Virus record (IMG/VR): IMGVR_UViG_3300017917_000570
Location: 1 to 24,911 of that record
DNA: 24,911 bases
Source of the DNA: a virus
Direction: 5' to 3' (one strand)
Numbering within the stretch: position 1 is the stretch's first letter; each line of letters begins with the position of its first letter. The translations under genes and the position numbers were made by a program. The notes under the pieces were generated by a model. The model was given only the letters and a program-made list of their open reading frames with translations. It did no database searches and had not been told where the DNA came from. Positions 3,880-8,988 of the stretch are shown in pieces.

Positions 3880-3887
3880 TATTTATA
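3880..3887 (-). promoter_or_regulatory. T4-type late promoter (TATAAATA) for gp20
   Basis: An exact TATAAATA on the minus strand lies within the 29-base gap between the tape measure stop and the gp20 start. The leader would be only about 15 bases. Confidence 0.75.
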
Positions 3888-3888
3888 G

Positions 3889-6813
3889 TTAAGCCCTGGA
3901 ATACTGTAATAATTCTTCTCTAGTATCGTTACCAGAACTTAGTTTATCTACAATTGCATCTAATTTTTCGGACATTACATCATACAAATCTTTCAATACA
4001 TTGATACTTTCGTCCTGTACAGAATTTACGCCGGGTGTTGGAATTAAATTAGGTAAACTTTCTTTTGTAACTTTTTCTAGTATAGACTTTATAGCTTCAA
4101 GTTGTTGCTGAGGAATTACTGCTTCTTTTCCATGTAACATGACTGGATAACCAGATTCTGGTCCATCAAACATGCCACCAAATCTTGCCATTTCTATATG
4201 CGGAGGGTCACCTTTTACTCTACTAAAACCATATTTGGATAGTAGGCCCATAGCATCCATTTCATTAACTTGCTGTGAGTTTAAGTCTAATGCTCTAGCG
4301 TAGTTGTGCCTACTGCCTCCCGGTGGAGCGACGGGATTACCTTGTGCATTATAGCGTCTGCCATCTGGACCAACTCTTGCTTTATCGTACAATGCTTGTT
4401 GTTCTTCCATAGTACGCATTGCTGCATTAACTTGTACCGGCTTTCCAAATTCAGCAAGCATTCTTTCAAAATTGTCTTTAACAGTGCTATCTAGTGCATC
4501 ATAATGTTCTTTGTTTCCTAAACTATCACCTTGGAATCTTAGTAATTGGCTTACGTCAACTTTTTTCTCAGTAGTTGCAGGAGTTAAAGGTGCCGGAGTA
4601 GCAGCTGGTTTTGGCGCGGCAGCAGGAGTAGGTGCCGCTGCTGCTGGAGTTTTAGCAGTGGTCGGTGTAGGGGCAGCCGGAGCAGTAGGTGCCGGCTGGG
4701 CCGGTGTAGCACTAGTAACCGGAGCAGTTTGGGCTGCTCTCATTCCTCTGGTAAGATTTTCTTGCTTTCTTTGCTCCCTTCTTTGATTTGCTTCTCTGAG
4801 GGCAGACTCTCTTTGCTCTCTTGCTGATTGAGCCACCGCAGCGGCATCCATGTCTGCTTGCTTTTTTGCTGCTTCTATATCTTTTGCAGGAGCTTTGGCT
4901 TTTTCTAATTCTTTAACTTTATCAGCAGATTGTTGTGCTGTAGTAGTTTGTGTTTCTAATTTTTTCTGTGCCTCGCCCACAGTAGGAGCAGGTCCTCCAC
5001 CTTTTATCCCAAATTGTTTGTTAATAAAGTCAACACCTGCATTTAATGCTTTTGTAAATGCAGCCACAGCAGGAGCTGCTTGCTTCATCAATGAATTACT
5101 GAATTCGAACATACTGTTCTTCATCTTATCCATTTCAGCCTGAGCTTTTACTGTTTCCTCTGTTAGTTTATCACCACCTTTTATTTGCTTATCTTGTAGT
5201 TCTTTGGCTTTTTCCATTGAACCCATGTACTTACCAGAAGCATAATCTTGTGCGGTAGCACCGTTCATTAACTGATCGGTACCATACATCATTACTGTAC
5301 CAAACTGTTTAACTGCACGTTGGGCACCAGTCATCATCATTCGTTGACTGTCATCATACGCTTTAGCAACATCTTCTGGCTTTCTTACTCCCTTTAGACG
5401 AGAAAGAATTTCTGGTACAGTATTACCGTAAGTGGTAATAGCCATACGTGCTTCGTCTGTTGTAGATACACCTGAAGCTAAGTCCATAAAACCACGCTTT
5501 AACTGCGGGTCTTTAATTGTCATAATGAACTTATTCATTGCCTCAGCAGCTGCCTCACCATTTTCTTGGCGAGTGCGCTCAAATGCCATACGGTATCTCG
5601 TATCGGACATCATTGCGTCACGTTGTTTTTCTACTTCCTCTCTGGAGAGACCAGTAACTTTTTGTAGTAAATCTAATTCTTTAACATAAGCAATTGTTCC
5701 TTGTTGCAATCGCTCATTGGTCATTTCTCTACCACGACCTAATCTAATTTCTTGTTTTAAGAATGCCGCTGCTTGTTCACCAACGTTATCTGCTGTTAAG
5801 CCCAATGCTCTTAATTGTAATCCTGCTTCCTCAAGTTTACCGCCTTTCTTGGTAATTTCACCAATAGCACCCATGAATTTGCCGGCGCCAAGACCAACTG
5901 TGCCACCAAAAGCTGTTAGTTCATTTCCATTTTCTCGGACTATCTTAGTAAAGCCCTCCATTGACATTCCAGAATCTATAACTTGCTTTTGTAAACCAGA
6001 CATGCCATTGGATACTAAACCTCCCATGTTAGATATGTCTTGGAACATTTTTAGATTCTTGTCCAAAAGCTCCATTGTTAGTTTAGCTGCCTCAGCGCCT
6101 ACTTTGATACCTGATGCTATACCGTCACCAAATACCGGAATTAATTTTGCTACCGATCCTAATGCGTCAGAAACTAAATCAATGATAGGGTTCAAGGTAC
6201 TGAAAGAAGATTCACCTTTAGCTAAACCCGCTGCAAAATTTCCAAGACCTTTGGCTAAACCACCTAAATTCTTTTTCATGGTGTCACCGAATTCGTCATA
6301 ACGCTTTTGCATTTCACGAATTTTATCTTCATGTTTTCGTAATTCAGCAACTTGTTTCTTTTGTGCTGCTGTTAATTCTACAGAAGTTTTTATTAGTTTA
6401 CCATTGGCGTCTTGGCTGTAACCCAAACTTTTGAGTTCATCGGTAAACATCTTGTTTCGTTGAACTTCTTTTAATATATTTGCTCGTTTTGCTTGTAATT
6501 CATCGTACACTGCTTTTTGCGATGCGTTTAGCAAACGCATTTCTTTGTCTTTAGCAGATACCCACTCCTTAGTAGTGCGGTCATATACTTGGCCGTATTG
6601 CTTCATTTGTGCATTGAAGTCAGTTCCTGCTTTTTTAAGAACTTCCGCACCGTTTGTAACTTTTTGCGATGAACTTTTTAAAGCAGACGTAAATGTACCC
6701 GCAGCTTGAGCACCTTGTTTCATTGAGGCTGACTGTGATGTAATGGCATCCGTCAAATCACGCAACTGTTGGTTCAGTTGATTTATTGCATCTGGGTCTA
6801 AATTATCAGCCAT
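3889..6813 (-). CDS. Tail tape measure protein with C-terminal peptidase M15 domain
   Basis: This 974-residue protein has tape measure character. It has long helical, Gln/Lys/Ala-rich segments (1-190), a hydrophobic Gly/Ala stretch (about 195-245), further helices to about 600, and a Pro/Ala/Thr linker (about 690-750). Residues about 770-880 look like a zinc peptidase of family M15 (L-Ala-D-Glu or D-Ala-D-Ala type): SRHNYARALDLN supplies His836 and Asp843, and GDPPHIE supplies Asp869 and His872, the D-x-x-H pair. It would cut peptidoglycan peptides as the tail delivers DNA. It is followed by FGGMFDGPESGYPVMLHGKE, a type of motif common near tape measure C-termini. T4's tape measure gp29 is 590 residues and has no such domain. 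A late promoter lies at 6842-6849. Recognition as tape measure is by architecture and neighbours; the M15 motifs are directly visible. Confidence 0.85.
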   Translation of the reverse strand: MADNLDPDAINQLNQQLRDLTDAITSQSASMKQGAQAAGTFTSALKSSSQKVTNGAEVLKKAGTDFNAQMKQYGQVYDRTTKEWVSAKDKEMRLLNASQKAVYDELQAKRANILKEVQRNKMFTDELKSLGYSQDANGKLIKTSVELTAAQKKQVAELRKHEDKIREMQKRYDEFGDTMKKNLGGLAKGLGNFAAGLAKGESSFSTLNPIIDLVSDALGSVAKLIPVFGDGIASGIKVGAEAAKLTMELLDKNLKMFQDISNMGGLVSNGMSGLQKQVIDSGMSMEGFTKIVRENGNELTAFGGTVGLGAGKFMGAIGEITKKGGKLEEAGLQLRALGLTADNVGEQAAAFLKQEIRLGRGREMTNERLQQGTIAYVKELDLLQKVTGLSREEVEKQRDAMMSDTRYRMAFERTRQENGEAAAEAMNKFIMTIKDPQLKRGFMDLASGVSTTDEARMAITTYGNTVPEILSRLKGVRKPEDVAKAYDDSQRMMMTGAQRAVKQFGTVMMYGTDQLMNGATAQDYASGKYMGSMEKAKELQDKQIKGGDKLTEETVKAQAEMDKMKNSMFEFSNSLMKQAAPAVAAFTKALNAGVDFINKQFGIKGGGPAPTVGEAQKKLETQTTTAQQSADKVKELEKAKAPAKDIEAAKKQADMDAAAVAQSAREQRESALREANQRREQRKQENLTRGMRAAQTAPVTSATPAQPAPTAPAAPTPTTAKTPAAAAPTPAAAPKPAATPAPLTPATTEKKVDVSQLLRFQGDSLGNKEHYDALDSTVKDNFERMLAEFGKPVQVNAAMRTMEEQQALYDKARVGPDGRRYNAQGNPVAPPGGSRHNYARALDLNSQQVNEMDAMGLLSKYGFSRVKGDPPHIEMARFGGMFDGPESGYPVMLHGKEAVIPQQQLEAIKSILEKVTKESLPNLIPTPGVNSVQDESINVLKDLYDVMSEKLDAIVDKLSSGNDTREELLQYSRA

Positions 6814-6841: not shown

Positions 6842-6849
6842 TATTTATA
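6842..6849 (-). promoter_or_regulatory. T4-type late promoter (TATAAATA) for the tape measure gene
   Basis: Exact TATAAATA on the minus strand, 28 bases upstream of ATG 6813, inside the 66-base divergent gap shared with the gp26-like gene. For the plus-strand gene only a poor candidate, ACTAAATA at 6825-6832, is visible. Confidence 0.75.
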
Positions 6850-6879: not shown

Positions 6880-7701
6880 ATGGATAACCCACTAAAACAG
6901 TACTTTCGCAGACCCGCACTATATCTAAAACTACCTAGTGTTGGTAAATTCTATAAAGAAGGAAGTATTGATTTACCGGAGAACAAAGAAGTTCCAGTAT
7001 TTCCAATGACAGCTATTGATGAAATTACTAGCAAAACGCCGGACGCATTGTTTAACGGTACTGCTGTCGTTGATATTATTAAAAGCTGTGTACCTAATAT
7101 TAAGGATCCATGGGCAATTCCTATCATGGATTTAGATCCATTATTAATTTCTATTCGTGCAGCCACAAATAGCAATGAAATGGAAGTAAACTCTATATGC
7201 CCCTCATGTAATGAAGAAGGTAAATATGGAGTGAACTTGATTGGTCTATTAAATGGATTAAGTTCTGGAAACTACGATGATGTAATTGAGATGGATGAGT
7301 TAAAATTCAAATTTAACCCATTGACTTACAAGCAAGTGAATGATTTAAACCTAAAGCAGTTTAGTATTTCTCAACTTGCCAGAACCTTAGATGATGTAGC
7401 TGATGAAGAAGAACGTTCAAAAGTTTCTGCATCGTTAGTTGTAGAGTTGAACAAGCTGGCTTTAGATTTAGTTTCAGAATCAATTGAATATATTGCTACA
7501 CCATCTGCTATAGTAAAAGAAAAGAATTTTATAATTGATTTCTTGCAAAATTGTGATAAGAAAACATTTGAACGACTTAAAGAAACAACAGTCAACCTAC
7601 GTGAAGGCTCACAATTAAAACCCATGAAGATAAAGTGTGTAAATTGTGGTCACGAATACCAACAATCATTAACCATCAACGTAACTGATTTTTTCGATTA
7701 A
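6880..7701 (+). CDS. 26: gp26-like baseplate hub / tail assembly protein (0-frame product)
   Basis: The 273-residue product belongs to the T4 gp26 type (T4 gp26 is 208 residues). T4 gp26 is called a baseplate hub subunit; a role as tail assembly chaperone is my inference here. ATG 6880 has a textbook TTAGGAG ribosome binding site, so an upstream in-frame codon at 6832 is not used. Two CxxC pairs (Cys107/Cys110 and Cys253/Cys256, the latter in KCVNCGHEYQ) look like a zinc ribbon split across the protein. It lies head to head with the tape measure gene, as tail chaperones usually adjoin tape measures. The gene ends GAT TTT TTC GAT TAA, where TTTTTTC is a -1 slippery site (see separate entry). 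Confidence 0.85.
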   Translation: MDNPLKQYFRRPALYLKLPSVGKFYKEGSIDLPENKEVPVFPMTAIDEITSKTPDALFNGTAVVDIIKSCVPNIKDPWAIPIMDLDPLLISIRAATNSNEMEVNSICPSCNEEGKYGVNLIGLLNGLSSGNYDDVIEMDELKFKFNPLTYKQVNDLNLKQFSISQLARTLDDVADEEERSKVSASLVVELNKLALDLVSESIEYIATPSAIVKEKNFIIDFLQNCDKKTFERLKETTVNLREGSQLKPMKIKCVNCGHEYQQSLTINVTDFFD

Positions 7702-7925
7702 GGCTTCAGTCCCTAGACCCCGAGGGGATACAGAAGCTGTTAGATGATTTAGAAGTTCAATCCATAGAAATCAAAAAAACTTGTTTGAGATTTTCTTGGT
7801 ATATGCGGGGTGGGGCAACCTATGAAGATATATTGAATATGTCCATAAAGGAACGTGAAATAATAGGTGATATTATTGAGAGTAACTTGGAAACAACTAA
7901 GAAATCTCAATTGCCGTTCTTCTAA
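6880..7925 (+). CDS. Predicted -1 frameshift product of the gp26-like gene (about 348 aa)
   Basis: A frame shifted by -1 opens at 7689 and runs to TAA 7923-7925. Read through the heptamer T TTT TTC (7689-7695), it adds 76 codons after residue 272, beginning RLRLQSLDPEGIQKLLDD and containing KKTCLRFSWYMRGGATYEDI and a LETTKKSQLPFF end. This extension looks like real protein, and the frame has no ATG or GTG until Met at 7803, deep inside that segment, so independent initiation would lose half of it. The arrangement matches the G/GT tail chaperones of lambda and E/E+E' of P2, where a minor frameshifted form binds the tape measure. A sequencing error at the T run is the main alternative. Frameshift efficiency is unknown. 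Confidence 0.6.
7689..7738 (+). promoter_or_regulatory. Candidate -1 programmed ribosomal frameshift signal
   Basis: The heptamer T TTT TTC is in the correct X XXY YYZ phase relative to the gp26-like frame. After a 7-base spacer comes a stem: GCTTC (7703-7707) pairs with GAAGC (7733-7737), then an A mismatch, GT (7709-7710) with AC (7730-7731), and CCC (7711-7713) with GGG (7725-7727) across a 2-base bulge. The 0-frame stop TAA lies 4 bases after the heptamer, between it and the stem. Confidence 0.6.
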
Positions 7926-7962
7926 TTCCAGACGTAACTATTCATTTATCACATCGGGGATA

Positions 7963-8015
7963 CCAATTAGAGATGAACTTCGTTCATCTAAGAACTCACT
8001 TCGTTCGTTCTTTGG
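7963..8015. repeat. Double-hairpin inverted repeat, possible terminator after the gp26-like gene
   Basis: Two adjacent hairpins are visible: AGATGAAC-TTC-GTTCATCT (7971-7989, 8 bp) and AAGAAC/GTTCTT (7990-7995 with 8007-8012), enclosed by CCAA/TTGG (7963-7966 with 8012-8015). A T-rich stretch follows on the plus strand (8020-8038). It may end plus-strand transcription, act on both strands, or stabilise the RNA 3' end. Confidence 0.45.
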
Positions 8016-8065
8016 TTATATTCTTTTAAACTCTTTTTAATTGTAAATCATTAAAGATATGATTG

Positions 8066-8415
8066 CCGCTTTGAAGCCATGGTAGTGCTATTCAGCACTA
8101 CCAAATGGAACTTGCCATGCCCGTCATCCATAGTCACTTATGCCCGTACTGTCGCCTTTTTGTTGACACAATACGCTACCGGTTGCTCTGTAAAGTTTAT
8201 GGCCTGTAGTGTAACCATGTATTATTAATACACGTTACCGCAACGCACATTCTATAACATCAAAGTGAAATAGTTATAGACTTGTTGAAGGTTCGCTTTT
8301 CTCGATTGCCTTCTCGGTATTCCGACAACCTCACGGTTATCGCATACTCCAGATCCATCGGCCATATTTCAGGCTTCTTCAAGGAGGTCTGACAACTCAG
8401 ACAGCAAATTTTTAC
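8066..8415. ncRNA. Candidate structured RNA in the convergent intergenic region (strand uncertain)
   Basis: The 7926-8421 gap holds no convincing gene but is dense in perfect stems: 8077-8108 (12 bp with a 2-base bulge), 8181-8216, 8211-8238 (including TGTATT/AATACA), 8251-8280 (8 bp TCTATAAC/GTTATAGA), 8315-8324, 8327-8338 and 8387-8402. An ATGCCCGT octamer occurs twice (8117-8124 and 8140-8147). For a plus-strand RNA: a TATGAT at 8058-8063 could be a -10, and the last hairpin (GTCTGA-CAAC-TCAGAC) is followed by AGCAAATTTTT, terminator-like. For a minus-strand RNA: 8327-8338 reads AACC-GTGA-GGTT, a GNRA tetraloop, and the other loops are A-rich. No known RNA family was recognised. Confidence 0.4.
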
Positions 8416-8421
8416 TAGATA

Positions 8422-8988
8422 TTAAACGTTAATTGTGAGAATATTGGGTGTGCTGTTTGTTGACATGGTGTCTGTTGAGCCAGTAGTTGAGTACCGTTTT
8501 AGTAGTTCAGTGTTGAGATTGAAAAATGTTGAGTGTTCAAAAATGAGCCAATCGCCGTATTTTTTAGATGTGTAATATACAAAATTATCTGAAACCCATG
8601 TGAGTTTACTTTGTACGCAAACGTATTGTCCTTTTCTGTTAAATTTCATAAACAGAATATTACAATCGTTTGGATCAGCAACATCTAGCAACTGATCCAG
8701 CCAAGCATCTAATACTTTACATTCCCCTGAAAGTAAAAGATGAAATGGGAAATCTTTATAGAATTTGCATTCTATATTCATATTTTTAAAACTATGTCCG
8801 GGAACAACATCGCCCTTGAACGAACGAATCTGTCCTTCGTGTAGTATTTCTTTACGAATTTGATTTTTCCCACCCACATATGCACCGGATCCAGGAGCAC
8901 GAATAAAACTCTCACCGTATTTTTCTGATAAAAACTTGGCTACTTCTCGTTCGTAACCTGAACCTTTTTGTTTTTGTGGACTTGGCAT
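8422..8988 (-). CDS. PD-(D/E)XK nuclease, Holliday-junction-resolvase-like
   Basis: The 188-residue protein opens KQKGSGYEREVAKFLSEKYG and continues with an RAPGSGAYVGG segment, KGD (Asp60) and IECKFYK (Glu73-x-Lys75). This is the acid...D...ExK layout of the PD-(D/E)XK fold as found in Hjc/RecB-like resolvases. The likely role is cutting branched or joint DNA during phage recombination and before packaging, a task T4 assigns to the unrelated endonuclease VII (gp49). It lies 35 bases downstream of gp46 on the same strand and is probably co-transcribed with gp47-gp46. No clear ribosome binding site precedes ATG 8988. The C-terminal 25 residues are Ser/Thr/Asn-rich. The fold call is from motifs; the exact substrate is unknown. 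Confidence 0.75.
   Translation of the reverse strand: MPSPQKQKGSGYEREVAKFLSEKYGESFIRAPGSGAYVGGKNQIRKEILHEGQIRSFKGDVVPGHSFKNMNIECKFYKDFPFHLLLSGECKVLDAWLDQLLDVADPNDCNILFMKFNRKGQYVCVQSKLTWVSDNFVYYTSKKYGDWLIFEHSTFFNLNTELLKRYSTTGSTDTMSTNSTPNILTINV

Follow-up and report, generated by a model that had tools for sequence, protein, structure and literature searches.

Tail assembly chaperones (TACs) of the G/GT type, among them lambda gpG/gpGT, those of P2-like phages, HK97 gp13 and the Vandenendeviridae TAC (GTTTTT), consist of a short form and a -1 frameshifted long form, with the slippery site near the 3' end of the gene and the gene beside that of the tape measure. The locus described here would match them in these respects, with its tape-measure-like neighbor on the opposite strand. 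T4-like phages also carry TACs, according to the PRFect paper (PMC10885494), which cites Vladimirov, Gautam & Davidson (Virology 2022;566:9-15) and relays from it that some T4-like phages have a separate short TAC gene and a long fusion gene. The paper on phage Adele (PMC12846349) credits the same work with poly-T -1 sites in TAC-N genes of T4-like phages. The proteins meant there are presumably gp26 and gp51, as far as these citing papers convey it. T4 gp51 is needed for assembly, is absent from the particle and has its function listed as unknown (PMC3004832). Since frameshifting TACs of T4-like phages have been reported before (Vladimirov 2022, in the words of the citing papers), the gene studied here joins a known kind. 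No earlier report of a frameshift in the jumbo phages treated below was found in a partial literature search, and what may be new is the extent of the arrangement in uncultured jumbo phages, the covarying stimulatory hairpin and the +1/-2 variants.

The window, that is, the whole stretch of DNA that was analyzed (24,911 nt; IMG/VR virus record IMGVR_UViG_3300017917_000570), comes from a T4-like, probably jumbo, phage. The frameshift locus comprises the following features.

6880..7701, + strand: gp26-like gene, short form (273 aa), tail assembly chaperone / T4_baseplate family (PF12322 and phrog_150 matches)
7689..7695, + strand: slippery heptamer T TTT TTC, in phase as X XXY YYZ (read directly; invariant in relatives)
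7689..7925, + strand: -1 frame extension, 76 aa after FF, stop TAA at 7923-7925 (conserved motif, dN/dS, HHalign to gp51)
7699..7701, + strand: 0-frame stop TAA of the short form (read in the sequence)
7702..7738, + strand: bulged stem-loop, 6-7 nt downstream of the heptamer (covariation in a 16-sequence alignment)

A Shine-Dalgarno-like AGGAG lies ~6-10 nt upstream of the gp26-like start at 6880. A Pfam profile search placed the short-form product in PF12322 (T4_baseplate; E 1.2e-17), with 64.8 bits against a curated cut-off of 24.5 and with positions 26-218 of the 219-position profile covered. The match spanned residues 48-272, so that the domain ends on the second slippery Phe. Among PHROGs, the product matched phrog_150 "baseplate hub" (1.7e-19). 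The 0-frame codons at the 3' end are GAT (7687), TTT (7690), TTC (7693), GAT (7696) and TAA (7699), and in relatives the 0-frame stop falls within about a dozen codons of the heptamer. Read from 7689, the -1 frame continues as TTT TTT CGA..., giving a predicted long form of 272 + 76 = 348 residues. As in G/GT genes, an in-phase heptamer near the 3' end thus opens a long overlapping -1 frame. The heptamer itself, U UUU UUC in the window phage, differs from that of lambda, G GGA AAG.

The window heptamer alone is not significant, because 64% of synonymous shuffles of the window gene carried some in-phase XXXYYYZ within the last 10 codons. Such a weak single-genome signal would be expected if the -1 frame had no function and the T run were mere codon choice at a Phe-Phe pair. 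This explanation, whose probability we regard as next to negligible, has already been refuted by the relatives, with their invariant heptamer, dN/dS values mostly <0.3 and gp51 homology across well over 100 contigs. TTT TTC stood at this point in 103/103 distinct homologs of the gene; of 86 other Phe-Phe pairs in these genes, one was encoded by TTTTTC. The codon before the heptamer was GAT, AAT, AGT, TCT, GCT or GGT in these 103 genes, leaving the amino acid free (D, N, S, A or G) and the final T fixed. TTTTTTC was also kept in all window-type (IMG/VR) and cyanophage-type relatives with a readable junction. In a further set of 107 contigs, fetched via the independent motif of a downstream RNA (see below) and overlapping the 103-gene set in a few cases, the chaperone gene ended with TTTTTTC and an open -1 frame in 107/107. 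Judged by this comparison with relatives, chance can be rejected as the origin of a heptamer conserved far beyond it. The first-pass annotation had recognized the in-phase T TTT TTC at 7689-7695 and a stem-loop behind a spacer, both of which are borne out by the sequence (7702/7703 paired with 7737/7738, covarying). It had also proposed to align the junction across relatives, and this alignment showed that the heptamer and the overlapping -1 frame are both conserved. A sequencing indel in the T run, which the annotation had named as a possible refutation, was rejected, as well over 100 independent contigs agree.

The -1 frame was open and conserved in IMG/VR relatives of the window phage, and the same arrangement was found in the cultured jumbo phages Atu_ph07, Phosso, RaK2, 121Q, PA5oct and SCTP-2, in XacN1 and RAS14 with seven T (TTTTTTT), in cyanophages (P-SSM3, P-HM2) and in Cr30, Aeh1, Va3, Mendera and RHph_I46, with a T7 run in Cr30. 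Departures from it were seen as well. The extension lies in the +1/-2 frame in Bacillus phage SP-15 (L050, ~4155-4400; GAA TTT TTT CAC) and in Microcystis phage Mel-JY01 (L052, ~4230-4470; AAC TTT TTT TGG), and the two sequences point to a +1 or -2 slip at this Phe pair. When the SP-15 protein was used as the query of a scan, SP-15 itself was the only hit. In PhaxI (L149, Ackermannviridae) and Vibrio phage D504 (L147), the extension frame is kept and no canonical heptamer was found at the end of gp26, so that these phages need either a separate start or another route to the long form.

The extension carries the conserved motif WYMRGGxSYEDxLNMSxxER...NLETTKKxxLPFF, with 18 invariant columns among 23 sequences. 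Outside the overlap, dN/dS was 0.04-0.29 in all informative pairs (one near-identical pair was uninformative), indicating, in line with a G/GT-type gene, that the extension is under purifying selection. The -1 frame codon directly before the heptamer is TGA (7686-7688), and there is therefore no upstream reading into the extension. Its product might instead be a separate small protein, the "gp51" of cyanophages, with its own start used by translational coupling or re-initiation after the gp26 stop. An ATG is indeed found within the first 4-6 extension residues in many cyanophage loci and in Atu_ph07, Phosso and 121Q, where annotators call a separate ORF. However, the first possible starts in the window extension are a TTG at residue 33 and an ATG at residue 39 (first F = 1), in agreement with the first-pass description of a plausible 76-residue extension with no early ATG or GTG, and ATG, GTG and TTG are all absent from the PA5oct extension. 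Moreover, conservation extends to the residues that precede the first start, the heptamer stays invariant with or without a nearby start, and T4 gp51 carries the extension as an in-frame fusion. Given the start-codon positions in the window and PA5oct, independent initiation was rejected as the main route, and we consider a separate protein unlikely.

The stem-loop downstream of the heptamer is built from an outer helix (7702-7708/7732-7738) and an inner helix (7711-7714/7724-7727). Its predicted folding energy in the window, -14.5 kcal/mol (z -1.7 for the single sequence), is weak in isolation. Within the window clade, 92% of cells were paired in the 16-sequence alignment, and 17 cells were doubly changed, where shuffled alignments gave 6.2 and slid versions 0-3. 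In Atu_ph07 (z -6.7) and Phosso (z -3.4), the structure behind the heptamer was very strong. Folding downstream of the heptamer was no better than in shuffles in L023, L032 and L059, and the structure is therefore a clade feature and not a rule of the family. The hairpin also bears on the question of whether it is the ribosome that slips. Slippage of RNA polymerase on the T6 run would equally account for an invariant homopolymer run and for the T7 runs of XacN1, RAS14 and Cr30. Yet a C closes the run, in phase with X XXY YYZ, and the covarying hairpin sits 6-7 nt beyond it, as -1 slipping by ribosomes needs. Six T are also short for polymerase slippage, which we hold to be quite unlikely here.

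Both T4 gp26 and T4 gp51 are PF12322 proteins (8.8e-64 and 3.9e-52, respectively), and gp51 has a 48-aa surplus beyond the domain. HHalign aligned the cyanophage extension with this surplus in register from the Phe pair (97.8% over 52 columns) and the window-clade extension with its second half (90.7% over 33 columns); for cyanophage and window extension alike, 0/100 column-shuffled profiles scored as high. The cyanophage extension also matched phrog_634 "baseplate hub assembly catalyst" (8e-30). These profile matches place the extension among the homologs of the gp51 C-terminal surplus. The T4 proteins and the window protein are accordingly of the same family, and gp51 carries fused in frame what the window phage encodes in its -1 frame. 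Because the extension matches the gp51 C terminus, T4 splits the short form (gp26) and the long form (gp51) between two paralogous genes, located on opposite strands, whereas the window phage has one gene and a -1 frameshift.

The gp26-like gene is flanked by a tape-measure-like gene with a promoter box.

3889..6813, - strand: tape-measure-like gene with a VanY peptidase domain, divergent neighbor of the gp26-like gene (VanY PF02557, 5.8e-6)
6842..6849, - strand: T4-type late promoter box TATAAATA, upstream of the tape-measure-like gene (sequence match)

The RaK2 equivalent of the tape-measure-like gene is annotated as similar to tape measure. That the gp26-like gene abuts a tape measure gene, as the first-pass annotation had stated, holds for the adjacency; the two genes are on opposite strands and divergent, unlike the co-directional order of G/GT loci, and the annotation is corrected on this point. 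In SP-15 and Mel-JY01, the order is tube, gp26, extension and tape measure, all co-directional, and in Cr30 it is gp26, gp51, an ORF and tape measure. As this is the order of G/GT chaperones, we count it in favor of a chaperone. The more general proposal that T4 gp26-type proteins are G/GT-type tail chaperones gains support from the conservation, the gp51 match and the gene order in relatives.

Some further observations were made on this neighborhood. The VanY/M15-type peptidase domain sits near the C terminus of the window tape-measure-like protein (3889-6813, - strand), and in P-HM2 the gene after gp51 is likewise annotated as peptidase M15. The window has only three TATAAATA boxes (T4 late promoter consensus), at 1740-1747, 3880-3887 and 6842-6849 on the - strand. 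Each lies just upstream of a minus-strand gene; this placement is notable, and the total count is not above chance.

An AlphaFold2 model of the gp26-like protein reached a pLDDT of 86.6. Compared with solved structures, it had no PDB match with E <0.3, and no TAC, including HK97 gp13, was among the matches listed. The model thus gave no match to the helical, spiral-forming TAC fold of HK97 gp13 and YqbN; this Foldseek result is compatible with a distant fold similarity, and the chaperone assignment draws on the other evidence. No convincing sequence relatives of the protein were found in the PDB. Among predicted viral proteins (BFVD), the best matches were mostly other T4-type baseplate hub proteins. 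They also included longer proteins (~380-690 aa) of other jumbo phages, for example the Erwinia phages Special G and phiEaH2 and the Ralstonia phages RSF1, phiRSL1 and RP12, hinting, at the level of predicted models, at unannotated TAC-like proteins.

Sequence comparison establishes the heptamer, the conserved -1 frame, the selection acting on it, the covarying structure and the homology to gp51. With a probability of about 0.88, we read the gene as a G/GT-type tail assembly chaperone of a T4-like phage, made by programmed -1 ribosomal frameshifting. The majority of ribosomes would read TTT TTC GAT TAA and terminate there, producing the short form of 273 residues. A minority would stall at the stem-loop 6-7 nt past T TTT TTC, move one base back on the uridines and translate 76 more codons, yielding the 348-residue long form. 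If lambda gpG/gpGT is a guide, the short form would cover the tape measure protein, with the C-terminal helical domain of the long form recruiting the tube protein. Ribosomal slipping, together with its rate and the ratio of short to long form, and the chaperone action on the tape measure are what we infer from the features above.

Downstream of the extension, a stretch of ~490 nt up to a RusA-like gene lacks any ORF of at least 60 codons. The closest relatives within the window clade share 69-78% identity with it over most or part of its length, and it folded better than all 100 shuffles (z -3.1). A conserved structured RNA lies here, within 7926-8425.

8060..8413, probably + strand: conserved structured RNA downstream of the frameshift gene (covariation, linkage)
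8080-8103: its 5' hairpin
8172-8331: its core
~8387-8402: its 3' hairpin, followed by a T run at 8409-8413

The RNA lies ~260 nt downstream of the frameshift gene, and further hairpins with UUCG are located upstream of the structured RNA at ~7971-8011. A 20-base motif of the RNA matched at least 120 IMG/VR contigs. Across 37 dereplicated cores, 98.6% of cells pair, and doubly changed cells numbered 147, where shuffling gave 40.8 and sliding at most 20. A covariance model located the RNA as a single copy in each of seven long contigs (155-525 kb). In all contigs with a readable upstream side (107/107), the RNA followed the frameshifting gene, usually at a distance of 170-300 nt from the stop of the extension. 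Given this covariation and the absolute linkage, it is close to certain that the structured RNA is real. G-U versus A-C cells were ambiguous with respect to its strand; the + strand is favored because of an invariant U-G pair and of the T residues behind the 3' hairpin. In L031, L018, L204 and L217, extension and RNA were ~1 kb apart instead of 0.5 kb, and the extra stretch in L031 (5038-5580) looks like an inserted coding stretch, perhaps a candidate homing-endonuclease-type ORF.

The structured RNA seems not to have been described before. An Rfam search with the ~490-nt stretch and the structured RNA matched no family, and blastn of the RNA found no relative in 50,697 phage records. With the covariance model, no copy was detected in the regions fetched from T4, RaK2, 121Q, Atu_ph07, cyanophages and other phages. 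As a tentative proposal, which we think has less than an even chance of being right, the frameshifting chaperone gene and the single-copy 3' RNA might form one functional unit in uncultured jumbo phages, in which the RNA would affect chaperone expression (stability or the ratio of long to short form) or join tail or virion assembly. Our guess is that it may serve tail expression or assembly as a stable 3' element or as an independent late RNA.

For RNA biologists, this RNA provides a sharply defined new target tied to a known assembly gene. The one-gene, -1 frameshift route to two tail chaperones is widespread among T4-like phages, extending over uncultured and cultured jumbo phages, Kyanoviridae cyanophages and the Straboviridae Aeh1 and Va3, and in annotations the long form is routinely overlooked or given a wrong start. 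The comparison further suggests that genes 26 and 51 of T4 may derive from a split of the one-gene frameshift arrangement, and the essential T4 gp51 gains a concrete, testable role.
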